Shown piece after piece: positions 24,898 to 41,412 of a stretch of 41,412 nt of DNA. Under the pieces are notes generated by a model, which was not told where the DNA came from, searched no databases, and saw only the letters and a program-made list of their open reading frames with translations. The position numbers and the translations under genes are program-made. How positions within the stretch are numbered: the stretch's first letter is position 1; each line of letters opens with the position of its first letter. Source of the stretch: Candidatus Pelagibacter sp. (GTDB taxonomy: Bacteria > Pseudomonadota > Alphaproteobacteria > Pelagibacterales > Pelagibacteraceae); contig JAOIYV010000006.1 of the NCBI GenBank assembly GCA_028226735.1, positions 1 through 41,412 of the forward strand. The letters run 5' to 3'.

Positions 24898-25254
24898 ATG
24901 AAAATCACAAATAAAAGAAAAATTATCAATATTTATGATGTTAAATTTAAGCCATTTGATAATTATGGTTCACCAGTTCCTGGAATGAGCTGGCATAAAA
25001 TTAGTTATAATAAAGAAAATGGTGGAATGGGATCCTACCTTCTTAAAATGTCTGCTAATTCAAAAAGTTTGCCGCATGTTCATACTGGATATGAGGAATT
25101 TTTGATTTTGGAAGGTGAGTTAACTGATCCTGACGGTAAAACTTTCAAAAAAGGTGATTTCATTACCTTTGAACCTGGCTCTACTCATTCTTCTCATACG
25201 AAAGATGGTTGCTTGATTTTAGTTTTTATGAGAGGTATCAACAAGTCTCTTTAG
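24898..25254 (+). CDS. Cupin domain-containing protein
   Basis: A 118-residue single cupin resembling the ChrR-type cupin family. Likely metal ligands are H60 and H62 in LPHVHTGYEE, a glutamate at 66 or 67, and H97 or H100 in GSTHSSH. The second cupin motif is GDFITFEPGSTHSS. It could be a small metal-dependent dioxygenase or isomerase, or a sensing domain; the function cannot be told. It follows tyrS after 8 bp. It is unlike the DddK-type cupin at 39074, which has a different active-site layout. Confidence 0.82.
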   Translation: MKITNKRKIINIYDVKFKPFDNYGSPVPGMSWHKISYNKENGGMGSYLLKMSANSKSLPHVHTGYEEFLILEGELTDPDGKTFKKGDFITFEPGSTHSSHTKDGCLILVFMRGINKSL

Positions 25255-25289
25255 TATAATTTATTTAAACTTATTAAAATTACTTATTT

Positions 25290-26033
25290 ATGATTGGAAT
25301 TTTAGGTGGAATGGGAACTCAAGCTGGACTTGATTTTTGCAATAAACTTGCGATGCTAAATAGAGGAAAGATTGATCAAGAATATCCACTATTTATACTC
25401 TATAATAAATCGAATATACCAGGAAGACCTGAGTCAATTGGAATTCAAACAAAAGAACTTTCAGCTATTCCAAAAAAACCTAAAAATATAATAAAATATA
25501 ATAAAGTTTTAAAAAGTTTACTTTCAGGCTGTAAATCACTAGAAAAAAGTGGTTGTAAATTTATTGTTATACCATGTAATACAGCTCATTATTGGTATGA
25601 AGACCTTCAAAAAAAAATAAGAATTCCAATAATAAATATGCCTAAAGAAGTTTTTTTATATGCTAAAAAGAAATGTAAAAAAAATTCAAAAATAGGACTG
25701 CTTGCTACAGAGGGAACTTTAAAAACAAAAATTTATGATAAATTGTTTGAAAAAAATTTTAAATTAGTTAAACCGACTGAAAATTTACAAATTTCTTCAG
25801 TAAATAAAACAATTAAAAATGTTAAAATGGGTAATATTAAGTTGGCAGAAAAATCTATTAAATCTGCAATAGACTATTTAATAAAAAAGAAATGTAAAAA
25901 AATAATTCTTGGTTGTACTGAATTACCTATTGCAATTTTTGCTTTTAAATCTTTTAAAAATGTTAAGATGTCAAAAATATATTTAGATCCAAATTTAATA
26001 TTAGCGTTGTCTTCTATGACAAAATATAAATAA
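25290..26033 (+). CDS. Aspartate/glutamate racemase family protein
   Basis: A 247-residue protein of the Asp/Glu/hydantoin racemase superfamily. It starts IGILGGMGTQAGLDF, and has the two catalytic cysteines C96 in IPCNTAHYW and C209 in LGCTELP, which act as opposite acid-base residues in this cofactor-independent family. The likely activity is interconversion of L- and D-aspartate or a similar amino acid. Middle and C-terminal segments are very lysine-rich, as expected for this genome. It is 35 bp after the cupin gene and 4 bp before an unrecognised gene. Confidence 0.88.
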   Translation: MIGILGGMGTQAGLDFCNKLAMLNRGKIDQEYPLFILYNKSNIPGRPESIGIQTKELSAIPKKPKNIIKYNKVLKSLLSGCKSLEKSGCKFIVIPCNTAHYWYEDLQKKIRIPIINMPKEVFLYAKKKCKKNSKIGLLATEGTLKTKIYDKLFEKNFKLVKPTENLQISSVNKTIKNVKMGNIKLAEKSIKSAIDYLIKKKCKKIILGCTELPIAIFAFKSFKNVKMSKIYLDPNLILALSSMTKYK

Positions 26034-27726: not shown

Positions 27727-28310
27727 ATATTTTTATAACCAAACTCCAAACATGAGTCGGTAATTGAATTATATAAAGATTCTCCAAAACTTCTTAAAGT
27801 AAATATTCTGACTTGATTAGGGTTATCTTTAATCATGTCAATAGTTACTGTCATTCCATTGAAAGTTGAGTTTATGCAATTATTGATATGTAGTTCGTTA
27901 AAATTATAAGGACATCCTTTTTTTAACACTTCTTTTAAATCTTTACCTTCTAATTCAATTATTGCTTTTGAGTGAGATAGGTCAGTATTAGCAAAATTTT
28001 TTTCATCAAATTTTTCTAAAACTTCTTTCATAAGTTCTTTTTTTGAAGATACTAAAAGCCAATTATTAGGTCCGTTCCAAAGAATTCGGGTATCAACATT
28101 ACTACTTACACTAAGAGCTTCATTCTTTAAATTAAGGTTATCTATTTTTATGTCTTTAATTGGTATTGAAGAATTTTTGTATTGTACTATTTGAACAATA
28201 AGCAAATCTTTATTTTCAGATATCTTTAATAAATCTTTTTCATCTTTATTTTTGTGATCTCCAAAAAGACCTTTCATATGAATATTCTTTAATGCTGGGA
28301 TTGAAGTCAA
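27723..28310 (-). CDS. soxG: Sarcosine oxidase gamma subunit
   Basis: The gamma subunit of heterotetrameric sarcosine oxidase, 195 residues. It belongs to the T-protein-like fold and forms part of the folate-binding side of the complex. Recognisable segments are ILWNGPNNWLLVSS, DLSHSKAIIELEG and FTLRSFGESLYNSI. The call is supported by position: the start overlaps soxA by 4 bp (ATGA), and the gene is the last of soxB-soxD-soxA-soxG. It ends in TTAA shared with the EamA gene. SoxG is variable in sequence, so context carries part of the confidence. Confidence 0.9.
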   Translation of the reverse strand: MTSIPALKNIHMKGLFGDHKNKDEKDLLKISENKDLLIVQIVQYKNSSIPIKDIKIDNLNLKNEALSVSSNVDTRILWNGPNNWLLVSSKKELMKEVLEKFDEKNFANTDLSHSKAIIELEGKDLKEVLKKGCPYNFNELHINNCINSTFNGMTVTIDMIKDNPNQVRIFTLRSFGESLYNSITDSCLEFGYKNI

Positions 28311-31303
28311 GATCTCACCCTTTCACCTTTTGGATCTACATAATGTGAAGAAACTATTTCGACTGGTATTGTTTTATTTTTCAATGGAGACATCGCAAAC
28401 AATTTTTGACCAATCATATTTTTTCCATCTTGGATAATTGCCAAAGAAAAAGGATTGTCGTATTCAACACTCCAACATGACGCTGAAATATAACCCAATT
28501 TAGGATTTGGTAACTGTGCTTTTGCATCCTTAACCAAATGAGATCCCTCTGGAATACTTGTTTTTTTATCTAGTGGAACAACACCTACAACCTTTTGTCT
28601 ATCTTTTGCCATAAAAGCCTCTCTATTTAGTGATCTTTTTCCAATAAAATCTTTCTTTTTACTTACCAAACCTTCTAAAGAGTTATCATAAGGAATGGTT
28701 CTTCCATCCAATTCAGAACCAGCAACGTGTCCCATTTCAATTCTCAGAGTTGATAATGCCTCTGTTCCATATGGCTGAATTTTAAATTCTTTGCCTATTT
28801 CTATTATTTTTTCCCACATGAAGTTTCCATTATTAGATTCAACATTTACCTCATATGCAAGCTCTCCAGAAAAAGAAATTCTAAAAATTCTTGCCTTAAC
28901 ACCAAACAAGTCTTTTTCAATATAGCCCATGAACGGTAAACCCTCATTTGATACATCAGATTTTGGAAATAACTTTTGCAATAAATCTCTAGATTTAGGT
29001 CCAGCGATAGCCGCTCCTGCCCATTGTTCAGTAGTTGATACTACATTTACATTTAGTTCTGGCCAAACTAATTGTAAATAATACTCTAAATGTGAGAGAA
29101 CATTTGCTGCTTGAGCAGTTGTAGTTGTCATGTGGTAATGATTTTCAGAAATTCTTGTTGTAGTTCCGTCATCCATAACAATTCCATCTTCCCTTAACAT
29201 CACACCATATCTTGCTTTGCCAACTGGCAATTTTAACCAAGCGTTAGTATAAACTCTGTTTAACAATTCTGCTGCATCTGGACCTTTAATATCTATTTTA
29301 CCTAGTGTTGTAACATCACAAACACCAACATTTGATCTTACATTTTTTGCTTCTCTTTTTGAGCCTTCAAATAATGTTTCATTTCCTTGTTTATAATATC
29401 TTGGTCTTAACCATACTCCTGCATCAACAAAAACTGCATTATTTTTTTGATGCCATGAATGCATTGGTGATTTTCTTGTAGGCTTTGAGTGTTTACCAAC
29501 TTCTCGACCAACAATTGCACCAATAGTAACTGGTGTATATGGAGGTCTAAATGTAGTGTGACCAACTGCTGGTACAACTTTGTTTTCAATATTAGACACC
29601 AACTGTAGACCATTAAGGTTACTAGTTTTTCCTTGATCAGTTGCCATACCAAGTGTGGTATATCTCTTAACATGCTCTATTGACCGATAACCTTCTTTTA
29701 AAGCAATCTCAATATCAGAAACAGCAACATCATTTTGAAAATCTAAAAATCTTTTATAATTTTTACCCTTTGGAAGTGGTACACACCAAAATTTATCATG
29801 TTGAGCTGATTTTTTTTCAATTACATTTGGAAAGGAAACTTTGTTGTCGTTGTTGGTGATTTTTTTTGATAACTTATGACCAGTTTCAAATGAGCTTTTT
29901 AAAGTTTCGTTTAAAGTATAAACACCATTTGCAGCACCTAATGTTTTTTCATTTTGTTTTGATATGCCAGGTACAAATGCATCTATCTTATCATTATATT
30001 GGGTTTTATTACCTGATTGTGACGCTAAGTGAATAGTAGGTGTCCAAAAACCAGAAACACAAATACAATCACATTTTATATTTTCTATAGGTCCAAGTTG
30101 TGTCTTATCTTCAGATATTTTTGCTACATCAGCAGACTTTACTTTCTTGTAACCTTGAGCAGCAACAACTACGTAAGAATTTTTAATATTAATTCCTAAA
30201 TTTTTTGCTTCATCAATAATTTCAGACTGTGGATTTTTTCTTGTATCTAAAATTATTGGATCAACATCATTTTTTTTAAATTCAATTGCAGTTTCATAGC
30301 CACTATCATTATTTGTAAAAATAAGAGGATTTTTTCCAACTAAAACGCCGTAAACTTTTAAATATTCCTTCGCCGCAGATGAAAGTATTACTCCGGGCGT
30401 ATCATTGTTTCCAAAAACAAGAGGTCTTTCAATTGATCCTGAAGAAATTAAAACTTCTTTAGCTCTAATATACCAAAGTCTTTGTTTTGGATGAAATTTT
30501 TTTGTTTTAGGTAAATGATCACTTATTCTTTCAGACATTACCAGCATGTTATGATCATAATAGCCAAAAACTTGTGACCTATTTCTAACTACCACATTTG
30601 GCATTTCTTTAAGTTCAGAAATTATTCCATCGGCCCATTCTTTGCCCGATTGATTTCCTATATTTACATCACTAGTTAATAATGTTCCTCCATACCTAGC
30701 TTTATCTTCAGCTAAGATCACTCTTGCTCCGTTTTTTGCAGCAGCGTATGCACTTGCTAGACCTGATGGTCCTGAACCTGCAATTAATAAATCACAATAT
30801 TCGTATTTATGTTCATATCTTTCCTTGTCATGTTTTGTGGATGCAACACCAAGGCCTGCTGCTTTTCTAATAAAAGGCTCATAAACTTTGTACCAAAAAC
30901 TTTTTGGCCACATAAAAGTTTTGTAATAAAATCCTGCTGGAAGAAACATTTTTAGAAAATTATTTATAGCTCCTATATCAAAATTAACACTAGGCCAACA
31001 GTTAACACTTGTTGCTTGTAGTCCCTCAAATAGCTCTTGTTCTGTAGCTTTAACATTGGGCTCGGTTTCACCATTTCTATATAATTGAATAATAGCATAA
31101 GGCTCATCAACCCCTGCTCCAAAAAATCCTCTAGGTCTATGATATTTAAAACTTCTTCCAATTAAATGAACTCCATTTGCAATTAAAGCTGAAGCAAGCG
31201 TATCTCCTTCATAGCCATAATAAGTATCGCCATTAAATTTAAATGAAAGTTTTTTATCTCTATTTATTAAACCCACATTTTCTAATCTAAAGCTTTGAAT
31301 CAT
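28307..31303 (-). CDS. soxA: Sarcosine oxidase alpha subunit
   Basis: The large alpha subunit, 998 residues. It combines an N-terminal Fer2-like domain without the cysteine cluster (about 1-100), an FAD/NAD-binding domain with GSGPSG at 176-181, and a C-terminal folate-binding aminomethyltransferase-like domain (about 610-998) that accepts the C1 unit from sarcosine as 5,10-methylene-THF. The domain order is that of known SoxA. It makes glycine, hydrogen peroxide and methylene-THF with SoxB, SoxD and SoxG. It begins directly after soxD. The final region contains GRTIPYDNSLEGLV and AYEVNVESNNGNFMWEK, typical of the T-protein fold. Confidence 0.96.
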   Translation of the reverse strand: MIQSFRLENVGLINRDKKLSFKFNGDTYYGYEGDTLASALIANGVHLIGRSFKYHRPRGFFGAGVDEPYAIIQLYRNGETEPNVKATEQELFEGLQATSVNCWPSVNFDIGAINNFLKMFLPAGFYYKTFMWPKSFWYKVYEPFIRKAAGLGVASTKHDKERYEHKYEYCDLLIAGSGPSGLASAYAAAKNGARVILAEDKARYGGTLLTSDVNIGNQSGKEWADGIISELKEMPNVVVRNRSQVFGYYDHNMLVMSERISDHLPKTKKFHPKQRLWYIRAKEVLISSGSIERPLVFGNNDTPGVILSSAAKEYLKVYGVLVGKNPLIFTNNDSGYETAIEFKKNDVDPIILDTRKNPQSEIIDEAKNLGINIKNSYVVVAAQGYKKVKSADVAKISEDKTQLGPIENIKCDCICVSGFWTPTIHLASQSGNKTQYNDKIDAFVPGISKQNEKTLGAANGVYTLNETLKSSFETGHKLSKKITNNDNKVSFPNVIEKKSAQHDKFWCVPLPKGKNYKRFLDFQNDVAVSDIEIALKEGYRSIEHVKRYTTLGMATDQGKTSNLNGLQLVSNIENKVVPAVGHTTFRPPYTPVTIGAIVGREVGKHSKPTRKSPMHSWHQKNNAVFVDAGVWLRPRYYKQGNETLFEGSKREAKNVRSNVGVCDVTTLGKIDIKGPDAAELLNRVYTNAWLKLPVGKARYGVMLREDGIVMDDGTTTRISENHYHMTTTTAQAANVLSHLEYYLQLVWPELNVNVVSTTEQWAGAAIAGPKSRDLLQKLFPKSDVSNEGLPFMGYIEKDLFGVKARIFRISFSGELAYEVNVESNNGNFMWEKIIEIGKEFKIQPYGTEALSTLRIEMGHVAGSELDGRTIPYDNSLEGLVSKKKDFIGKRSLNREAFMAKDRQKVVGVVPLDKKTSIPEGSHLVKDAKAQLPNPKLGYISASCWSVEYDNPFSLAIIQDGKNMIGQKLFAMSPLKNKTIPVEIVSSHYVDPKGERVRS

Positions 31304-31573
31304 TTAAGAATTACCCTCGTTAGCTTTCATTGTTTTAAAAATTTCATGTGTTGCAGTATCTCTCTCGACCTTTATCCATTGGCGGCAACCTGATAAATGT
31401 TGCCACAGCTCTAAATGTTTTCCTCTTAAACTTTTTCTATTGTAAACAAAGTTATCCCATTCCTGGTCAGAGACTTCACTATTAAGCTCTGGTCTTTTAA
31501 TAGTTGCATCACCTCCATAAGAAAATTCATTTTGTGATCTCATTCCACAATGTGGACATTTAATGTGTAGCAT
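31304..31573 (-). CDS. soxD: Sarcosine oxidase delta subunit
   Basis: The 89-residue delta subunit of heterotetrameric sarcosine oxidase. It binds zinc; the ligands visible here are C6 and C9 in IKCPHCGMR, and H59 and C63 in LWQHLSGCRQW. The pattern Y-x-R-x-N/S-x-x-G-x-x-x-E-x-W-x-H is typical of SoxD. It is placed between soxB and soxA with no gap on either side. Confidence 0.95.
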   Translation of the reverse strand: MLHIKCPHCGMRSQNEFSYGGDATIKRPELNSEVSDQEWDNFVYNRKSLRGKHLELWQHLSGCRQWIKVERDTATHEIFKTMKANEGNS

Positions 31574-32833
31574 TTATGAAATCCAAGTTTTTGTTCCAAG
31601 TCCTTTTTCATCTAGTAAGTGACCCGTGTTAAATCTATTTAAACTATATCCTGCATTTAATTTATGGACTTTATCTTGTGCAATTGTATGTGCAAATGTC
31701 CATCCTGATGCTGGAGTTGCTTTAAATCCACCATAACACCATCCACAATTTAAATACAATCCTTCGATATGTGTTTTGTCAATAATAGGTGAACCATCCA
31801 TAGACATATCCATTATTCCACCCCAGGTTCTTAACATTTTTAATTTGCTTAAAAAAGGCATCATAGCAATTCCTTCAGTTAAAACATGCTGTAAGGTTGG
31901 TAGGTTTCCTCTTTGAGCATAGCTATTGTATCCATCTAAATCTCCACCCATTACCATTTCACCTTTATCAGATTGACTAATATAAAAATGTCCTGCGCCA
32001 AAAGTTACAACTCTATCTAAAACAGGTTTTACTGGTTCTGAAACACATGCCTGAAGAAGATGGGTTTCTACTGGTAAAGTCATATTTAATTTTTCAGCTA
32101 AAATATTTGTGCTACCTGCAACACACAAACCTATCTTTTTAACTTTAATATCACCCCTCGAAGTTCTAACTCCATTAATTTTTCCACCAGAAATATCAAA
32201 ACCAGTTACTTCACAATTTTGGATTATATCAACACCCATTGAGTCTGCTTGTCGTGCATACCCCCAAGCTACAGCATCATGTCTAGCTGTTCCGGCACTT
32301 GGCTGCATTAAACCTCCAAAGATGGGAAATCTTACATTTTCTGAAAAATCTGCCATTGGTATAATTTCTCTTACTTGTTCTCGGTTTAATAGAACTGCAT
32401 CAATACCATTTAAACGCATGGAATTTCCTCTTCTCGCATAAACATTCATTTGAGCATCAGAATGTGCTAAGTTAATAATCCCTCTAGGAGAAAACATAAC
32501 ATTATAATTTAAATCTTGGCTCATCTTTCTCCATAGATCCATTCCAAACTCACTAAATAATGCATTATCGTCATGCATATAGTTTGATCTTATAATAGTA
32601 GTATTTCTTCCAACATTTCCACCACCTATCCAGCCCTTCTCAATAATTGCGACATTAGTAATATTGTGTTCTTTTGCCAGATAGTATGCGGTAGCTAGAC
32701 CATGACCGCCACCACCGATAATAACAACCTCATATTCTTTTTTTGGTGTAGGATCTTTCCATGCTAAATCCCAGTTCTGATGACCAGAAAATGCATTTTT
32801 TATCAGATTAAATATGGAATATTTTTGCATCAT
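31574..32833 (-). CDS. soxB: Sarcosine oxidase beta subunit
   Basis: The beta subunit, 419 residues, where sarcosine is oxidised. It has the FAD-binding motif VIIGGGGHGLATAYYLA (about 37-53) of the DAO family. H185 in AGTARHDAVAW corresponds in position to the histidine that carries the covalent FMN in studied enzymes. Two ATG codons open the frame; the shorter start would differ by a single residue. It is the first gene of the sox operon, with a 125-bp AT-rich region shared with divergent fhs. The C-terminal CGWCYGGFKATPASG is also characteristic. Confidence 0.95.
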   Translation of the reverse strand: MMQKYSIFNLIKNAFSGHQNWDLAWKDPTPKKEYEVVIIGGGGHGLATAYYLAKEHNITNVAIIEKGWIGGGNVGRNTTIIRSNYMHDDNALFSEFGMDLWRKMSQDLNYNVMFSPRGIINLAHSDAQMNVYARRGNSMRLNGIDAVLLNREQVREIIPMADFSENVRFPIFGGLMQPSAGTARHDAVAWGYARQADSMGVDIIQNCEVTGFDISGGKINGVRTSRGDIKVKKIGLCVAGSTNILAEKLNMTLPVETHLLQACVSEPVKPVLDRVVTFGAGHFYISQSDKGEMVMGGDLDGYNSYAQRGNLPTLQHVLTEGIAMMPFLSKLKMLRTWGGIMDMSMDGSPIIDKTHIEGLYLNCGWCYGGFKATPASGWTFAHTIAQDKVHKLNAGYSLNRFNTGHLLDEKGLGTKTWIS

Positions 32834-32958: not shown

Positions 32959-34644
32959 ATGAGTAAATTTAAAACAGATATTCAAATTGCAAGAGAAGCA
33001 AAAATGCAACCTATAAATGATATTTTAGCAAAAATAAATGTTCCAAATGAAAGCTCAGCTTTCAGTCCAATGGGCCGACATATAGCAAAAATCAACTTAG
33101 AATATTTAGATACTTTAAAAGATAAACCAGATGGTAAATTAATTTTAGTAACTGCTATCACGCCTACTCCAGCAGGTGAAGGTAAAACCACAACATCTGT
33201 TGGTTTAAACGATGGATTAAATAATATTGGAAAAAAATCGATTGTTTGCTTAAGAGAACCAAGTCTTGGTCCTTCCTTTGGAATGAAAGGTGGTGCAGCC
33301 GGAGGTGGTTATGCTCAAGTTGTTCCTATGGAACAAATCAATTTACATTTTACTGGAGACTTTCATGCAATAACTTCGGCTCATAATTTATTGTCGGCTT
33401 TAATTGATAATCATATTTATTGGGGTAACAAATTAGATATAGACGTTAGAAGGGTTGTGTGGAAAAGAGTAATGGACATGAATGATCGTTCTTTAAGATC
33501 TATAAATATAAATTTAGGTGGTGTTGCTAATGGTTTTCCTAGAGAAGATGGTTTTGATATAACTGTAGCTTCTGAAATCATGGCAATCTTCTGTTTGTCT
33601 AATGATTTAGAAGATCTAGAAAAAAGAATAGGAAATATTACAATAGCCTACACTAGAGAGAAGAAACCTGTTTACGCAAAAGATCTAAAAGCTCAAGGTC
33701 CAATGACTGTTTTGTTAAAAGATGCAATTAGACCAAATGTTACTCAGACTTTAGAAAATAATCCTGCTATTATTCATGGTGGCCCATTTGCGAACATTGC
33801 TCATGGTTGTAATTCTGTAATTGCAACTAAGACCGGATTAAAGCTTGCTGACTATGTTGTAACAGAAGCAGGATTTGGTGCTGATTTAGGTGCTGAAAAA
33901 TTTCTTGATATTAAGTGTAGAAAATCAGATTTAAAACCAAGTTGTGTCGTAATTGTTGCAACTATTAGGGCATTAAAAATGCATGGTGGTGTAGCAAAAG
34001 ATGATCTTAAAACAGAAAATGTAGATGCATTAAAAAAAGGTTTAATTAATCTTGAAAGGCACATTGAGAACGTCAAAAAATTTAACTTACCTGTTGCGGT
34101 TGCTGTTAACCATTTTATTAAAGATACAGATAATGAGGTAAAAGCTTTAATTGAATTTTGCAATAAAATTGGTGTTAAAGCCAGTCTTTGTACGCATTGG
34201 GCAAATGGTGGTAAAGGAACAAAAGAGTTAGCAAGTAATGTTGCTGAACTATGTGAAAAAAATGAGAATAAATTTAAATTTTTATATGAAAGCAAAACTC
34301 CTCTTTTTAAAAAAATAGAAACAATTGCAAAAGAAATTTATAGAGCTGATGAGGTTATTGCTGATACTAAAATCAGAGATCAATTAAAAAATTTTGAAGA
34401 CGCTGGTTATGGCGATTTTCCTATTTGTATTGCTAAAACTCAATATAGTTTTTCAACAGATCCAAGTTTAAAAGGTGCGCCAACCGGTCATGCTTTACCA
34501 ATTAGAGAAATTAAACTTTCTTCTGGGGCAGAGTTTATCGTCGTTATTTGTGGAGCTGTTATGACCATGCCTGGATTACCAAGAATTCCAGCTGCGGACT
34601 CAATTAAATTAAATAAAAATGGTGAAATTGAAGGTCTGTTTTAG
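32959..34644 (+). CDS. fhs: Formate-tetrahydrofolate ligase
   Basis: Joins formate and tetrahydrofolate using ATP to make 10-formyl-THF, or runs in reverse to release formate and ATP. At 561 residues it has normal length. The nucleotide-binding signature [16 protein letters not shown] is at about 68-83, followed by [19 protein letters not shown] and the conserved [11 protein letters not shown] clear AGGAG ribosome site lies 8 nt before the ATG. It is divergent from soxB; methylene-THF from sarcosine oxidase could be oxidised to formate through Fhs, yielding ATP, as proposed for SAR11 C1 metabolism. It ends 2 bp before the convergent amidotransferase gene. Confidence 0.97.
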
Positions 34645-34646
34645 GA

Positions 34647-35438
34647 TTAATTAATTATATTTAGCCAATTTCTTAACTCTAGCATTCTAGAATCCTTTTC
34701 TGAAATCTTAATCTCTTCTTCAATAAATTTGATATGACCATTAATTTCTTCCTCATTCTTAAATCTTTTTCTTTTTTCAATTAAAGCTTCTTTTCTAAAT
34801 TTAATAATATCCACCATTTTGTTATAAGTAATTTCAGGATGATACTGCAGGCCCCAAATTTCACTAATTCCACTTTTAAAATTTAAACCTTGAATTTTAT
34901 TAATTTTATTTGATGCTAAGTGAATTGCGTCCTTAGGGGCGGTCACTACTTCATCAAAATTAAATGCTGGAGTGTTAAATCTATTATTTTTATCTTTATA
35001 AAGTGGGTTTTGTAAACCTTCATTAGTTATCTCAATATCATTTGCTATTCCAATATGGGAACCCTTTACTCCTTTTTTAACTTCACCACCAGCTGCCGTT
35101 ACAGCAACTTGCATTCCCCAACAGATTGCTAATATTTTTTTTACATTCTTAAAACATTCTTTCATAAATGAAATTTGTCTTCTTATTTCGGGAGTGTCAT
35201 TGTAAATATTTAAACTACTACCTCCCCAAATTAAACCATCATAATTTTTTAATTTAGGTACAACATCATTTAAATCTAATTCGAGGCAAGGATTTATTAC
35301 ATCTATCTTTAAATTTTTATTATAGTAGGCAAGGCTTTCTTTTAAGCTCTCTGTATGAGTTGGTATCCCAACATCTTGAAAAATTTTTCCTTCCTCTGGT
35401 GTATTTCCTTCACAGACTAAAATATTTAATTCTTTCAT
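34647..35438 (-). CDS. Class I glutamine amidotransferase-like protein
   Basis: A 263-residue protein with the GATase class I fold: nucleophile C106 in ILAICWGMQ, and the partner residues H200 and E202 in LQYHPEIT. The usual oxyanion glycines (LIWGGSSLN, about 69-77) are also present. It resembles GMP synthase-type amidotransferase domains standing alone, which either deliver ammonia to a partner or hydrolyse gamma-glutamyl compounds. The final 50 residues are charged and helical and not part of the core domain. It overlaps the alcohol dehydrogenase gene by 4 bp, so it belongs to that three-gene operon. The partner is unknown. Confidence 0.85.
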   Translation of the reverse strand: MKELNILVCEGNTPEEGKIFQDVGIPTHTESLKESLAYYNKNLKIDVINPCLELDLNDVVPKLKNYDGLIWGGSSLNIYNDTPEIRRQISFMKECFKNVKKILAICWGMQVAVTAAGGEVKKGVKGSHIGIANDIEITNEGLQNPLYKDKNNRFNTPAFNFDEVVTAPKDAIHLASNKINKIQGLNFKSGISEIWGLQYHPEITYNKMVDIIKFRKEALIEKRKRFKNEEEINGHIKFIEEEIKISEKDSRMLELRNWLNIIN

Positions 35439-36598
35439 TTAAATAATTCTCCTGACATGCTGTGTTGATACATTAGTTTCATATCTGCTTCAGTTAATTT
35501 CTTTGGATTTCCTCCAGTCGATGGGTCTGCTAAAGCCATTTTTGATAATCTATCAATATCAAAGTCTTTTTCATTAATGACGTCAGATAATTTATGGGGA
35601 ATTTCTAATTTTTTTCTCAAATCTAAAATCCATTCAATAAAGCCATCAAAAGATTGATTATTTAATTCTATATATTCACATATTTTAATTATTCTTTGTT
35701 CTATAACGTCTTTATTAAAAGTTAAAACATAAGGCATGAAAATTGCATTTGATAAACCGTGATGAACATTATTCAATGCATTAATAGGGTGACTCAATGA
35801 GTGAATCGCTCCTAAACCTTTCTGAAATGCAGTTGACCCCATGCTAGCTGCAACCAACATATTCATCCTTGCTTTTATATCTGATCCATCATCAACTGCC
35901 CTTACTAACCAAGTTTTAATTAATCTCATACCTTCTAAAGCAATTCCATCTGCCATTGGATGATAACCAGACGCACAATATGCTTCTAGATTGTGCGCTA
36001 AAGCATCCATTCCGGTTGAAGCTGTAATTTTTGATGGAAGTCCGAGTGTTAATACTGGGTCTAAAATAACTATTGCAGGTAAAAATTTTGGATGAAAAAT
36101 AATATTTTTTACACCAGTTTTTTCATTTAAAATCACAGATGCTCTGCCTGTCTCTGAACCTGTTCCAGCTGTAGTAGGTACAGCAATTATAGGTGCAATT
36201 TTATCATTGTTAGCTTTCGTCCAATTATCTCTAACATCTTTAAAGTTCCATAATGGTAATGTTTGACCAGACATAAATGCAATTGCTTTACCAACATCTA
36301 GTCCACTTCCACCACCAAATGCAATTACACCATCACAATTATTTTTTTTATAAAAATCAACACCCTCATTTACATTTGAACCTGTAGGATTTCCAACAAC
36401 ATTAGAATATAATACAACTATAAAACCTTCTCTTTTTAAATTTTTTATGGCATCAATCACAATATTTGATTTAGCAAGACCACTATCTGTCACCAGTAGT
36501 GGTTTATTAATATTTAAATTTTTACAAGCAATACCCAAATCTTTAATTCTATTTTCTCCAACCCATATAGTTGTTGGGTAGTTCCAATTTGACTTCAT
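35435..36598 (-). CDS. Iron-containing alcohol dehydrogenase
   Basis: A 387-residue group III (iron-type) alcohol dehydrogenase, NAD(P)-dependent and cytoplasmic. The nucleotide-binding FGGGSGLDVGKAIA is at about 94-107, followed by TTAGTGSETGRASV. Metal ligands match the family: D198 and H202 in MDALAHNLEAY, then H266 and H280, spaced 14 residues as in FucO. Such enzymes have been proposed to oxidise methanol or other small alcohols in SAR11; here the substrate is open. It lies between a GATase-like gene (4-bp overlap) and the GpsA-like gene (6 bp away). Confidence 0.92.
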   Translation of the reverse strand: MKSNWNYPTTIWVGENRIKDLGIACKNLNINKPLLVTDSGLAKSNIVIDAIKNLKREGFIVVLYSNVVGNPTGSNVNEGVDFYKKNNCDGVIAFGGGSGLDVGKAIAFMSGQTLPLWNFKDVRDNWTKANNDKIAPIIAVPTTAGTGSETGRASVILNEKTGVKNIIFHPKFLPAIVILDPVLTLGLPSKITASTGMDALAHNLEAYCASGYHPMADGIALEGMRLIKTWLVRAVDDGSDIKARMNMLVAASMGSTAFQKGLGAIHSLSHPINALNNVHHGLSNAIFMPYVLTFNKDVIEQRIIKICEYIELNNQSFDGFIEWILDLRKKLEIPHKLSDVINEKDFDIDRLSKMALADPSTGGNPKKLTEADMKLMYQHSMSGELFK

Positions 36599-36604
36599 TC
36601 TGAT

Positions 36605-37633
36605 TTACCAGTCAATTTCTAATTTCTTGTTTTCACATATAGTATTCAACATACTGAACATTAATGGAAAATGTTTGGGATTAAGATCTTGTAAAATTTT
36701 TGGTCCAATTTCCAAAGCAAGTTGGGCCCCTTCAACTGTAACTTTTTTCATAAACTTTTCTTTAGCATCTTTGTAAAGATATCCTTCTCCAAGATATCTG
36801 CCCATTAAACTATTTCTTCCTCCTATTGCACTAACATATAGATCTCCTAGTCCTGCTAATCCATAAACAGTTTCTGGTTTGCCTCCATAGTGAGAGACAA
36901 ATTCAACCATTTCAGAAATTGATCTATGAATTAATGAGGCTGATGTATTAAGATAATATTTAGATTGAATTTCTTTGGATGCTATAGAATTACTTAATCC
37001 TTTAGATGCTCCAATTAACATTGAATAAATATTTTTAATAGCACCAGCTAATTCAACACCTATCAAATCTTCTGATATTTCTGTCGAATAATAATTAGTT
37101 GATATTATCCTTTTTAATGATTTGGTCTCTTCAATATCTGGATTTGCAATGACCGTTCCTGTTCTCATTTTATTTGCAAGACCTGCTGCTAAACAAGGTC
37201 CTTTGATTGCTGAAACATTAGCGTCTATTCCACAATTTTTCTTTAGAATCTTTTTTATTTTATCTGAAAGTGTTATTAATTCATCGTTATCTACTGCCAA
37301 GCCTTTTGTTAATAAAATAATAGGAAGATTTTTTTTATAATCTTTTTCAATTTGATTAACAAACCACTCGATACCTACTGAGCTCACACCAGCAACAATT
37401 ATATCCACCCCTTCTTCAAGGATTGATTTTAATTTCTCGTATTTTTCAACTCTTAGTTTAGTAGGTAACTTAAGATTCAGAGCTGGGTGAAAATTATTGT
37501 TTGATTTTATATTATTTATCAAAACATCTTCAAGATGAGTGCCCACAAGAGTTACATCATTTTTGTTTTCGAGACATGGCACAGCAAAAGCTGATCCCAT
37601 AGCCCCAGCACCAATAATAATAAGTTTTTTCAT
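36605..37633 (-). CDS. GpsA-like NAD(P)-dependent glycerol-3-phosphate dehydrogenase family protein
   Basis: A 342-residue dehydrogenase with an N-terminal Rossmann motif GAGAMGSAFAV (8-18) and the C-terminal domain of the glycerol-3-phosphate dehydrogenase family. Catalytic lysines are expected at K110 in LLTKG and K200 in GVELAGAIKNIYS. The region after K110 departs from ordinary GpsA: SAIKGPCLAAGLANKMRTG replaces the usual SGPSFA-x-E pattern. This may mean a changed substrate rather than the housekeeping enzyme. It is the first gene of the unit with the iron-type alcohol dehydrogenase and the amidotransferase, unlike usual gpsA neighbourhoods. It is divergent from tmm, 80 bp apart. Confidence 0.8.
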   Translation of the reverse strand: MKKLIIIGAGAMGSAFAVPCLENKNDVTLVGTHLEDVLINNIKSNNNFHPALNLKLPTKLRVEKYEKLKSILEEGVDIIVAGVSSVGIEWFVNQIEKDYKKNLPIILLTKGLAVDNDELITLSDKIKKILKKNCGIDANVSAIKGPCLAAGLANKMRTGTVIANPDIEETKSLKRIISTNYYSTEISEDLIGVELAGAIKNIYSMLIGASKGLSNSIASKEIQSKYYLNTSASLIHRSISEMVEFVSHYGGKPETVYGLAGLGDLYVSAIGGRNSLMGRYLGEGYLYKDAKEKFMKKVTVEGAQLALEIGPKILQDLNPKHFPLMFSMLNTICENKKLEIDW

Positions 37634-37713
37634 ATTGAGTTATTTTTTTTATATTAATTTTTAGCATTTTGTGAGTAAAGTACAGTTATAAATTTATTGA
37701 GAGGGGTTGTTTT

Positions 37714-39054
37714 ATGACAAAAGTTGCAATTATTGGTGCTGGGCCTTGTGGTTTATCCGCTTTGAGATCTTTTGAACAAGCTGAAAAAAAAGGTGAAAAA
37801 ATACCTGAGATAGTTTGTTTTGATAAACAAGAAGATTGGGGTGGTTTATGGAACTATAGTTGGAGAACAGGATCTGATCAATATGGTGATCCTGTACCTA
37901 ACAGTATGTATAGGTATCTTTGGTCAAACGGTCCAAAAGAATGTTTGGAATTTGCAGATTACTCTTTTGATGAACATTTTGGCAAACCAATTCCATCATT
38001 TCCACCGAGAGAGGTTTTATATAATTATATATTGGGAAGAGTTAAAAAAGCAAATTTAAAAGATAAAATTAAGTTTAATACCTCGGTCACTAGTGTTAAT
38101 TATGATGGTAACAGTTTTGAAGTCACTTATCGTAATAAAAAAGATGATAAGATTTCTAAAGATAAATTTGACTATGTAATTGTTTCAACAGGTCATTTCT
38201 CTGTTCCTTTTATCCCAGAATATCCAGGAATGAAATCATTTCCAGGAAGAATAATGCACTCACATGATTTTAGAGATGCAGAGGAGTTTAGGGATAAAAA
38301 TGTTGTAGTTTTAGGAAGTAGTTATTCAGCAGAAGATGTGGCACTTCAATGCCACAAGTATGGGGCAAAAAGTGTAACTATAGGTTACAGGCATAATCCG
38401 ATGGGATTTAAATGGCCGAAAGGTATGAAAGAAGTTTATCATTTAGATAGACTTGAAGGCAACAAAGCAATTTTTAAAGATGGACATGAACAAGATGCAG
38501 ATGCTTTAATTTTGTGCACAGGATACCTTCATCATTTTCCATTTTTATCAGAAGATTTAAAACTAAATACTGGTAACAGGTTGTATCCACCCAAATTATA
38601 CAAAGGCGTTGTTTGGCAAGATAATCACAAATTAATCTATTTAGGTATGCAAGACCAGTTTCATACTTTTAATATGTTTGATTGTCAGGCTTGGTTTGCA
38701 AGGGATGTTATTATGGGTAAAATTAAAATTCCAAGTAATTCAGAAGTAGAAAATGATATAAATAAATGGGTTTCTATGGAGGAAAAATTAGAAAATCCAG
38801 ATCAAATGATTGATTTTCAAACTGAATACACAAAAGAACTTCATACTTTATCTGATTATCCAAAAATTGATTTTGAATTAATTAGAAAACATTTTAAAGA
38901 ATGGGAACATCACAAAGTTGAAAATATTATGACATATAGAAATAAATCTTTTTCCTCACCAGTAACTGGATCGGTTGGTCCAACACATCACACTGCTTGG
39001 GAAGTTGCAATGGACGACTCTTTAAAAACATTTTTAGATCAGCCTAAAAAGTAA
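37714..39054 (+). CDS. tmm: Trimethylamine monooxygenase (flavin-containing monooxygenase)
   Basis: A 446-residue class B flavin monooxygenase that N-oxygenates trimethylamine to TMAO using NADPH and oxygen; characterised bacterial Tmm also converts DMS to DMSO. The FAD site is GAGPCG (8-13), the NADPH site GSSYSAED (201-208), and the FMO fingerprint is FPGRIMHSHDF (176-186). The stretch NSMYRYLWSNGPKE (63-76) is typical of Tmm rather than other FMOs. N72 and Y204 align with the Asn72 and Tyr207 reported as important in a Roseovarius enzyme. A GAGAGGGG ribosome site precedes the ATG. The DddK-type gene follows 19 bp downstream on the same strand. A broader FMO activity cannot be excluded. Confidence 0.9.
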   Translation: MTKVAIIGAGPCGLSALRSFEQAEKKGEKIPEIVCFDKQEDWGGLWNYSWRTGSDQYGDPVPNSMYRYLWSNGPKECLEFADYSFDEHFGKPIPSFPPREVLYNYILGRVKKANLKDKIKFNTSVTSVNYDGNSFEVTYRNKKDDKISKDKFDYVIVSTGHFSVPFIPEYPGMKSFPGRIMHSHDFRDAEEFRDKNVVVLGSSYSAEDVALQCHKYGAKSVTIGYRHNPMGFKWPKGMKEVYHLDRLEGNKAIFKDGHEQDADALILCTGYLHHFPFLSEDLKLNTGNRLYPPKLYKGVVWQDNHKLIYLGMQDQFHTFNMFDCQAWFARDVIMGKIKIPSNSEVENDINKWVSMEEKLENPDQMIDFQTEYTKELHTLSDYPKIDFELIRKHFKEWEHHKVENIMTYRNKSFSSPVTGSVGPTHHTAWEVAMDDSLKTFLDQPKK

Positions 39055-39073
39055 ACTTTGATTTGCACTTTAT

Positions 39074-39448
39074 ATGATATTTGTAAAAAATATTAAATCT
39101 ATTTCTGATCAAGAATGGTCATCAACTAAGAAATATCCAGGTGTTAGGTGGAAATTTTTAATTGATGCAGATTTTACTGGGAGTTCTGGGCTTTCACTTG
39201 GTTTTGCAGAAATCGAACCAGGTGGTGACTTAATTCTCCACTATCATTCACCAGCAGAAATATATGTGGTTACTGATGGTAAGGGAATATTAAATAAATC
39301 TGGTAAACCTGAGGAAATAAAGAAAGGTGATGTTGTTTATATTGCGGGAAATGCAAAGCACGCTTTAAAAAATAATGGAAAAGAAACTTTGAAATTTTAT
39401 TGGATTTTTCCAACAGATCGTTTTTCAGATGTTGAATATCTCTATTAA
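39074..39448 (+). CDS. dddK: DMSP lyase DddK (cupin)
   Basis: A 124-residue single cupin that closely resembles the Pelagibacter DddK, which cleaves dimethylsulfoniopropionate to DMS and acrylate. The opening MIFVKN and WSSTKKYPGVRWKFLIDADF match DddK as I remember it. All reported key residues fall at the same numbers: metal ligands H56, H58, E62 and H96, the catalytic base Y64, and Y122 near the C-terminus. The protein ends shortly after Y122, about six residues shorter than the studied HTCC1062 enzyme. It sits 19 bp after tmm, probably in one transcript, and its stop shares TTAA with the convergent permease. The identification rests on motif positions and memory of the family, not on an alignment. 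Confidence 0.88.
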   Translation: MIFVKNIKSISDQEWSSTKKYPGVRWKFLIDADFTGSSGLSLGFAEIEPGGDLILHYHSPAEIYVVTDGKGILNKSGKPEEIKKGDVVYIAGNAKHALKNNGKETLKFYWIFPTDRFSDVEYLY

Positions 39449-41412
39449 TCTATACCAAGATGCTTTTTTCGTTGGTCTACCCAAGTTCGAATTAAATTGT
39501 CAAATATCAAACCTATAAAAGCAACACAAAGACCGAGTGTTAAGCCTATACCTGCACCATTTTTATCTGATAAAGCTTTTAAAATATACTGACCTAAATC
39601 TTCTGTACCAATAAATGCACCAATAATTACCATAAATAAAGCAAACACAATAGTTTGATTTAAACCAAGCATCATGTGAGGAAATGCCAAAGGAAATTCT
39701 ATTTTAAATAATCTTTGTAGTTTTGTTACACCTGACATTGAAGCTGCATCATGTAAAGCAGTTGGAACACTCTTTAAACCTTCGATGGTATATCTCGTAG
39801 CAGGTATAGTAGCATAAACTATCACCGCTATTAATACTGAGGTATCTGTTACTCCAAAAAGCATCATAACTGGAATTAAGTAAACAAATGAGGGAAATGT
39901 TTGAAAAATATCACAAACTCCCAACATAAAACTTGTAGTATGCTTATTTTGAAAACATATAGTTCCTACTGTAAATCCGATTATACAAGATATAATTACT
40001 CCAAAAGTTGCCATGTATGTTGTAACTAAAGCTCTGTCCCACCATGGGCTTAATGCAATAAATAATGTTAAAGCACCAACTACCACTGCTGAACGAATTC
40101 CTCCAATTATATAACCAGCACCAACAACTAATACTAAAGTCGCAACCGCTGGCATTCTTAGATACAGAGCTCTCATTGGCTGTAGAACATCTACTATCAA
40201 CCAGGTATTGAATGTTTTTAAAGTTTGAAAAAAAGTATCCCAAACCCAATCAACACCTCTATTCCAAAAGTCTGCTGTTGATATTCCTTTATTGTGTGGA
40301 ACTTCAAATAAATAATTAAAGCCTTCCTTAAAATAAAAAGACCCAACATAAGCAAACATAATTCCAATTAATACTGATGCAGCAAAAAACAATGAATTTT
40401 TGTGACGTTGAAAGAAAGTCAGGTTACCAAAATAATCTATTTGTTTGTTTGCCCAGGCTAATGACATTTTATCTAGCAAGATTGCAATTAAACTAATACA
40501 TAAACCTGCTTCTAATGCTAATCCAATATTGAGCTGATTTAATGCTAGCAATAAATTAAATCCTAAACCTTTTGCTCCAATAAATGCTGAGATAACTGCC
40601 ATAGAAAAACACACCATAATTACTTGATTTACTCCGATTAAAATATCTCTTCTTGCAGTTGGAATTAATACTTTAAACATAAGTTGTGAATTAGTACATC
40701 CGCTCATTCTTCCAGCTTCAATAACTTCAGGAGGTATTCCTCTAAGACCTAATAAAGTTAACAATATCATTGGTGGAACTGCCACAACCATAGTTATAAT
40801 GACTGCTGCATGGTCACCAACACCAAAGAGAACAATTGCTGGAACTAATACAGCGTATTGAGGCATTGTTTGCATAACTAAAAGTATTGGGTACAAAGCT
40901 TTTTCTACTCGTTTACTTTTGAATGCTGCAATACCTAGGCCTAAACCAAAAACAAAAGAAAGTGGTGCAGCAACCAATATAAAAGAAAGTGTTTGCATAG
41001 AAGGCTTCCATTGACCAAAAACAGAAATATAAATCATTACTAAGCCAGCAAATAAAGCTAGCCCCTTACCGCTTAACTTATAACCTAAAATAGCTGCACC
41101 AGCCGCAACGATTGTCCAAGGTAGTCCTGGTAGCTCTGCCCATGGATTTGCATCTATCCAATCCCAACTCGTAAAAGCAACAATAGTTTCCATACCACCC
41201 AATAAAATCTCTCTAATTAATTCAATTAGAAATGTCATAAATGAAGTTAAGTTTCTTGTTATTTGTAAAACTAAAGGTCGAGTTTTGAATTCTTGAGTAT
41301 CTTCATTCCAAAATTCCATTGGCATCCACTCATTCATTAAAAAAAACAAGGAATCATTTATCCAAATAGGAAGCCACCCAAGTAAAGGTGGCAATCTCCA
41401 AAAAACGTCAAA
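39445..41412 (-). CDS. Tandem ABC permease of the betaine/TMAO (ProW/TmoW) type, partial
   Basis: At least 656 codons, open through the right edge of the window, so the N-terminus is missing; a TTG at 41394 is not a convincing start. The protein holds two BPD-type permease domains in tandem. Each has the EAA-type loop: IEAGRMSGCTNSQL at about 225-238 and HDAASMSGVTKLQRL in the second half, both followed by a FIG-x-x-x-LG segment. About twelve or more membrane helices are visible. A fused double permease is typical of TMAO and glycine betaine systems such as TmoW, and the neighbouring tmm fits that reading. The ATPase and binding protein should lie beyond the window edge. Choline or betaine remain possible substrates. 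Confidence 0.87.
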   Translation of the reverse strand, partial: FDVFWRLPPLLGWLPIWINDSLFFLMNEWMPMEFWNEDTQEFKTRPLVLQITRNLTSFMTFLIELIREILLGGMETIVAFTSWDWIDANPWAELPGLPWTIVAAGAAILGYKLSGKGLALFAGLVMIYISVFGQWKPSMQTLSFILVAAPLSFVFGLGLGIAAFKSKRVEKALYPILLVMQTMPQYAVLVPAIVLFGVGDHAAVIITMVVAVPPMILLTLLGLRGIPPEVIEAGRMSGCTNSQLMFKVLIPTARRDILIGVNQVIMVCFSMAVISAFIGAKGLGFNLLLALNQLNIGLALEAGLCISLIAILLDKMSLAWANKQIDYFGNLTFFQRHKNSLFFAASVLIGIMFAYVGSFYFKEGFNYLFEVPHNKGISTADFWNRGVDWVWDTFFQTLKTFNTWLIVDVLQPMRALYLRMPAVATLVLVVGAGYIIGGIRSAVVVGALTLFIALSPWWDRALVTTYMATFGVIISCIIGFTVGTICFQNKHTTSFMLGVCDIFQTFPSFVYLIPVMMLFGVTDTSVLIAVIVYATIPATRYTIEGLKSVPTALHDAASMSGVTKLQRLFKIEFPLAFPHMMLGLNQTIVFALFMVIIGAFIGTEDLGQYILKALSDKNGAGIGLTLGLCVAFIGLIFDNLIRTWVDQRKKHLGID

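Follow-up and report, generated by a model that had tools for sequence, protein, structure and literature searches.

Both enzymes of the gene pair considered here have described counterparts in SAR11: DddK of Candidatus Pelagibacter ubique HTCC1062 (SAR11_0394; PDB entries 6a53 and 5tfz) and the trimethylamine monooxygenase Tmm of Pelagibacter sp. HTCC7211 (Tmm7211; PDB entry 7d4k). HTCC1062 contains DddK, DmdA and Tmm (PMC8520302), and the frequent co-occurrence of Tmm with DMSP lyases has been suggested to let some bacteria channel DMS to DMSO (PMC8498191). As far as the accessible portions of these two papers go, the published pairing is one of co-occurrence per genome, whereas in the locus described here the two genes stand side by side and are co-directional. 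Few cells in the surface ocean are as abundant as those of SAR11, and it matters for the flux of sulfur from sea to air whether DMSP sulfur exits them as DMS or as DMSO.

The window, a stretch of 41,412 nucleotides from Candidatus Pelagibacter sp. (contig JAOIYV010000006.1), carries tmm (37714..39054, forward strand; 446 residues, ATG start) and, 19 nt further on (gap 39055..39073), a predicted gene for a cupin lyase of DMSP and DMSOP, dddK (39074..39448, forward strand; 124 residues, ATG start). Both open reading frames are intact, and the adjacency and spacing agree with the first-pass annotation. We propose, with a probability of roughly 0.55, that a SAR11 locus for methylated-osmolyte and C1 metabolism received dddK in the junction between tmm and a betaine-type permease gene, where it is most likely the second gene of the tmm transcript, and that the benefit would be joint expression rather than the trapping of DMS. 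Briefly, the starting locus would have comprised sarcosine-oxidase-like genes, fhs, tmm and the permease gene; dddK would have entered between tmm and the convergent permease gene and would probably be read from the tmm promoter, such that cleavage of DMSP and DMSOP would be expressed together with methylamine oxidation. DddK would then convert DMSP to DMS and acrylate, and DMSOP to DMSO and acrylate, with Tmm acting mainly in TMA oxidation and turning over some DMS to DMSO.

Identity of the pair and its genomic setting

The cupin matches the DddK structures 6a53 and 5tfz over residues 1-123 with an E-value of about 1e-71, the next-best cupin other than DddK reaching only 2e-10; it is also a match to the Pfam Cupin_2 domain. 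The metal ligands H56, H58, E62 and H96 and the catalytic Y64 and Y122 are all in place, with W26 and W110 likewise conserved. In a dddK tree built without non-DddK cupins, the window copy and that of HTCC1062 (L056) share a clade of 33 rows with support of 100/99. The structure match and the tree placement together rule out a cupin other than DddK, in keeping with the first-pass assignment. The six named residues are kept in 54 of 55 dddK rows (two rows being duplicates). The exception, L039, has a lysine at position 62 replacing the metal ligand E62; its DddK is possibly inactive, or the change a single-cell genome error.

The predicted monooxygenase aligns without gaps to 7d4k over residues 1-442 (E 3.3e-270) and scores 745.7 bits on the NCBIfam trimethylamine monooxygenase equivalog NF058570 (cut-off 675), so its naming as Tmm holds. 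It displays the FAD motif GxGxxG and is identical to Tmm7211 at N72, S203, R226, H227, N288, D314 and R409, the seven mutated positions tabulated in PMC8498191. Pairwise pN/pS values against seven relatives are 0.10-0.17 for the window dddK and 0.06-0.16 for tmm; hence, both genes look to be under purifying selection.

Upstream of tmm lie, on the reverse strand, a divergent glycerol-3-phosphate dehydrogenase-like gene (36605..37633; N- and C-terminal Pfam NAD_Gly3P_dh domains), an iron-containing alcohol dehydrogenase (35435..36598; Pfam Fe-ADH) and a class I glutamine amidotransferase (34647..35438; Pfam GATase). Beyond them is the C1 island around tmm, namely fhs, the formate-tetrahydrofolate ligase gene (32959..34644, forward strand; NCBIfam NF010030, 921.9 bits against a cut-off of 652), and, on the reverse strand, a DAO-family oxidase (31574-32833) and a sarcosine-oxidase alpha-like protein (28307-31303), with Pfam matches to SO_alpha_A3, GCV_T and DAO across 28307..32833. 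The genes of this island are those of methyl-group oxidation. On the other side, convergent with dddK, is a glycine betaine/choline-type ABC permease gene (opuAB/proW-like; 39445..41412, reverse strand, extending beyond the window end; Pfam BPD_transp_1), whose best NCBIfam matches are choline and glycine betaine permeases with scores under their cut-offs. The accessible text of PMC3160333 places both fhs and opuAB/opuAA/opuAC in the C1 and glycine betaine metabolism of SAR11. The permease and dddK stops overlap by 4 nt, as they do in 19 of the 21 measurable linked loci, window included. The window gave no Rfam match at gathering scores. Elsewhere in it (24898-26033), a small Cupin_7 protein is followed by a protein of the Asp/Glu racemase fold, the superfamily of the algal DMSP lyase Alma1 (table in PMC8520302); neither shows any sign of acting on DMSP.

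Distribution of the pairing and history of the junction

A DddK scan of genome contigs returned 54 loci, 48 of which (L001-L048) carry a Pelagibacter-type dddK, with L049-L054 being distant cupins. A tmm frame lies 13-20 nt upstream of dddK in 25 of the 48, window not counted and L002 included though its tmm is cut by the contig end, and dddK is found elsewhere in 20; in L022 the contig stops within tmm, leaving just a tail, L009 has a tmm remnant, and L046 is cut inside dddK. Across the 26 linked loci, window included, the gap measures 19 nt in 14, 20 nt in ten, 18 nt in one and 13 nt in one, while its letters vary. This recurrence rules out a one-off or an assembly artefact. The first-pass annotation had called for a survey of SAR11 gene order, and its outcome is two-sided, with the order recurring among the dddK loci but not among tmm genomes at large: in a family sample of 397 genomes (the family of G001, drawn from a larger group), 112 carry tmm, eight dddK and seven both, with the two adjacent in only two (G001 and G004). 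Thus, with 2 of 112 tmm genomes showing it, the pairing is not general in SAR11.

Adjacency is not needed, because 105 of the 112 tmm genomes lack a dddK match and tmm is present elsewhere in 19 of 24 genomes with unlinked dddK, many of which are probably incomplete. The 24 comprise the 20 unlinked loci plus G036, G084, G215 and G269; among the 19, the tmm of G430 is in two pieces and the Tmm of G005 (L079), full-length and near glycerol kinase-like and glycerol-3-phosphate dehydrogenase genes, is only 58% identical to that of the window. The G036 DddK equals the 6a53 sequence over residues 1-123 (compared by eye), and this genome is almost certainly HTCC1062, the source of the characterised enzyme. 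Its dddK, at 386 kb of a 1,308,759-base contig, is beside a fabI-like gene (named by eye) and about 0.84 Mb from tmm (1,229 kb), in contrast to the window, where dddK follows tmm by 19 nt. The two genes are about 412 kb apart in G084, and on different contigs in G215, G269 (tmm on contig C2) and G009. As to the scope of these counts, L064 and L080 duplicate L045 and L009 and were excluded from the dddK tree and from the 24 but kept in the 55 residue-check rows and in the 28 unlinked rows of the upstream-element comparison below; L046 was excluded from the dddK tree, L079 stands outside the 30 unlinked tmm loci, L089 (contig end) outside the downstream-ORF check, and L062 was left out.

Both enzymes are known, and what the locus adds is an adjacency shared by many of the Pelagibacter dddK loci found. 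The first-pass annotation was not aware of the pairing as a described operon. Co-occurrence is in print and a route from DMSP to DMSO has been suggested there, whereas the adjacency goes unmentioned in the parts of papers searched and may be described beyond them, for instance in the original DddK paper.

The tmm context was inspected in 31 of the 112 family-sample genomes (29 retrieved tmm loci plus L013 and L048) and in G005, G008 and G010. Among 32 tmm loci without adjoining dddK, a convergent permease gene is less than 300 nt away in 14 (gap 4-214 nt) and 971-2525 nt away in 11, and was not found in seven; the tmm stop comes within 4-32 nt of the permease stop in seven loci. Where the permease is farther off, glycerol-3-phosphate dehydrogenase and/or glycerol kinase-like genes (the kinase identified by eye in three) occupy the space, as in L063, L069, L070, L076, L082, L090 and others. 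It is this same junction that the window dddK occupies. None of the 30 judgeable unlinked tmm loci has a co-directional ORF of at least 60 residues starting within 80 nt after tmm. The content of the tmm-permease junction thus varies, with dddK its sole co-directional occupant in the loci examined.

One locus, L066 (G301), sits among the linked loci on the tmm tree, with dddK gone and about 45 nt of its 3' end left between tmm and permease, a deletion scar whose local score is 21 where 60 shuffles reach 12.5 at most. Among the 14 tmm-permease gaps shorter than 300 nt, L066 alone showed such a remnant, gaps of a few nucleotides being too short to do so. In L009/L080 (G007), an intact dddK follows what is left of a divergent Tmm, a C-terminal stretch of about 137 residues at 45-46% identity; the two adjoin unrelated genes, and the locus could be a chimeric single-cell assembly. 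The linked, unlinked, dddK-deleted and tmm-truncated relatives thus make up a natural set in which the question of DMS or DMSO as the exit form is testable without strain building, the first available comparison being that of HTCC9565 (linked; locus L048) with HTCC1062 (taken as unlinked).

In phylogenetic terms, the linked tmm genes occupy two separate parts of the tmm tree, a single clade being rejected (AU p 0.0017). The dddK tree requires five changes of the linked/unlinked label, or three if L009 and L022 are scored as linked; on it the window dddK groups with the dddK of the second tmm clade (99/82), and the HTCC1062 copy falls near the linked L018. Quick trees of neighbouring genes require nine changes (permease gene) and six (fhs). 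Insertion followed by exchange and loss fits this pattern, with the caveat that these change counts cannot separate gain from loss. Two further candidates were rejected: a Q-containing C-terminal Tmm tail travelling with dddK, which all 26 linked tmm genes encode but which 11 of 30 unlinked ones encode too, and a tmm 3' end swapped in with dddK, as linked genes across the two clades score 0.768 over the last 150 alignment columns against 0.782 for linked and unlinked genes of the same clade. Over the first 150 columns the corresponding values are 0.864 and 0.813, and this 5'-end likeness of linked tmm is a possible trace of recombination. Viral carriage of dddK was likewise discarded, a search for close relatives giving 36 pattern matches, none of them a relative.

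The most serious competitor of our proposal, which we nonetheless hold to be rather unlikely, is neutral hitch-hiking, in which dddK was merely lodged in a permissive, variable junction and is carried by read-through, with no metabolic tie to Tmm. The glycerol genes filling the same junction in other genomes lend it substance and imply that the dddK insertion there may be opportunistic; so do the loss of dddK from L066, the mere Tmm piece retained by L009 and the occurrence of dddK at several other sites, one of them behind a TRAP transporter. However, it does not readily account for dddK being the sole co-directional gene behind tmm in the loci examined, for a gap length that stays between 18 and 20 nt in all but one of 26 loci, or for the presence of tmm in 19 of 24 dddK genomes even when unlinked. 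The TRAP arrangement belongs to another SAR11 clade (L031-L033, L035, L038, L041 and L045): there dddK is the last gene, 11 nt behind the other unit and without a -10-like hexamer of its own, and upstream stand DctP, DctM and DctQ (by Pfam in L035, the one locus checked) rather than the tmm of the window. It is possibly an uptake-plus-lyase unit. These TRAP-linked copies form the 68-71% clade, and their convergent downstream genes look, by eye, like those of ergothioneine synthesis.

Fate of DMS and role of the pair

The first-pass annotation had offered a different benefit, namely that a cell making DddK and Tmm together would turn DMSP into DMSO via DMS, with little DMS leaving. Its enzymatic premise is sound, as Tmm7211 does oxidise DMS in addition to TMA (PMC8498191), and this route had already been proposed from the genomic co-occurrence noted above. 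Further, tmm is commoner in genomes with dddK (7 of 8, against 105 of 389 others in the family sample; Fisher p 0.0008, uncorrected for kinship), and HTCC1062 can use DMSO as a sulfur source (PMC10686828). The route as such is therefore possible, but the kinetics oppose immediate oxidation: the kcat/KM of Tmm7211 is 18.0 per min per mM for DMS against 161.2 for TMA, i.e., nine-fold less efficient, with a KM for DMS of 250.5 uM and a kcat of 4.5 per min (PMC8498191), and oxidation of DMS by Tmm is described as depending on methylamines (PMC9240709, citing Lidbury 2016). On the supply side, the tabulated KM of DddK for DMSP is 82 mM (PMC5395565).

We estimated the escape of DMS for a cell of 0.19 um radius with a permeability of 0.001-0.1 cm/s and 10-100 uM Tmm, all of these inputs except kcat/KM being assumed. 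On these figures, 2e-7 to 2e-4 of the DMS would be oxidised by Tmm before leaving the cell, escape outpacing capture by about 4 to 7 orders of magnitude; thus, joint expression alone would not hold DMS back. Oxidation by Tmm would be confined to DMS in equilibrium with seawater, or would need a hypothetical physical channelling. HTCC1062 carries the two genes, and the accessible text of PMC8520302 has it breaking DMSP down to DMS and MeSH; in the family sample, tmm accompanies dddK in seven of eight genomes but adjoins it in only two. Hence, the claim that the pairing limits DMS release is not supported, and we regard the DMS-trapping role as improbable.

DMSO can moreover arise without any help from Tmm, since DddK of HTCC1062 cleaves DMSOP directly to DMSO and acrylate, with an efficiency higher than on DMSP (PMC10686828). 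This leads to a more speculative version, to which we likewise give small odds, wherein the pair might be a DMSO-making module of some Pelagibacter lineages: DMSO would come from DMSOP via DddK and from part of the DMS, seawater DMS included, via Tmm, and would serve as a source of reduced sulfur, the dddK cassette having spread into the tmm-permease junction and given up its own promoter. To our minds, the likeliest role of the tmm-dddK pair is the joint expression of osmolyte-degrading activities.

Transcription of the pair

Joint expression presupposes a shared transcript, and co-transcription of tmm and dddK appears likely from the short gap of constant length and from the upstream signals. 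A conserved promoter-like element precedes tmm (37667..37684, forward strand), followed by a purine-rich, ribosome-binding-like stretch (37699..37706, forward strand). The 12-nt core of the element, at up to three mismatches, is found before linked and unlinked tmm alike (19 of 25 and 26 of 30, against 22.5% of shuffles) but before dddK in only 1 of 26 linked and 4 of 28 unlinked rows, the motif having been picked by eye from these same sequences. In its 18-nt form it occurs in the window once without mismatch; at three mismatches there are three matches, versus 3.15 in shuffles. Of 55 tmm loci, 40 have a Shine-Dalgarno-like motif ahead of tmm; the motif precedes one of 27 linked dddK copies and occurs in 3 of 20 control gaps.

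An exact TATAAT or TAAGAT within 20 nt before the dddK ATG is seen in all 17 stand-alone copies (TATAAT in 13, TAAGAT in four), in 2 of 27 linked copies and in none of the seven TRAP-linked ones; as the hexamers, like the element, were picked with these sequences in view and the stand-alone set includes 11 near-kin copies, these counts lean towards the operon reading. With the hexamers absent from most linked copies, linked dddK genes have apparently shed their own promoter. Under a looser -10 score (at least 5 of 6, scored in one narrow range for every group), 13 of 27 linked gaps pass, as do 5 of 20 control gaps and, of the stand-alone copies, 3 of 17. The stand-alone figure is low since the hexamers there are mostly placed too far from the ATG for this range or are TAAGAT. 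Some relatives may thus retain an internal promoter ahead of dddK. In the window gap the best -10 match is 3 of 6, below even the looser score.

Scans of the region 36500-39700 found no terminator-like site, which says little because shuffles of the region hold only 1.6 on average, and 16 promoter-like sites against 16.1 in shuffles, none of them within 38723-39073. A literature search on leaderless transcripts in SAR11 gave nothing relevant. The remaining reading, in which dddK has a near-leaderless promoter within the gap and the fixed gap length is a matter of promoter spacing and not of an operon, is the least probable of all, for although it can point to the 13 of 27 linked gaps with 5-6 of 6 matches to TATAAT (exact in two) and to the 26 of 27 without a Shine-Dalgarno-like motif, it has against it the poor hexamer of the window gap, the want of a clear difference between linked and control gaps, the concentration of exact hexamers in stand-alone copies and the promoter scan. 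As for dddK outside the pair, the unlinked gene of HTCC1062 is induced by DMSOP and DMSP (PMC10686828), indicating that dddK can also be controlled alone.
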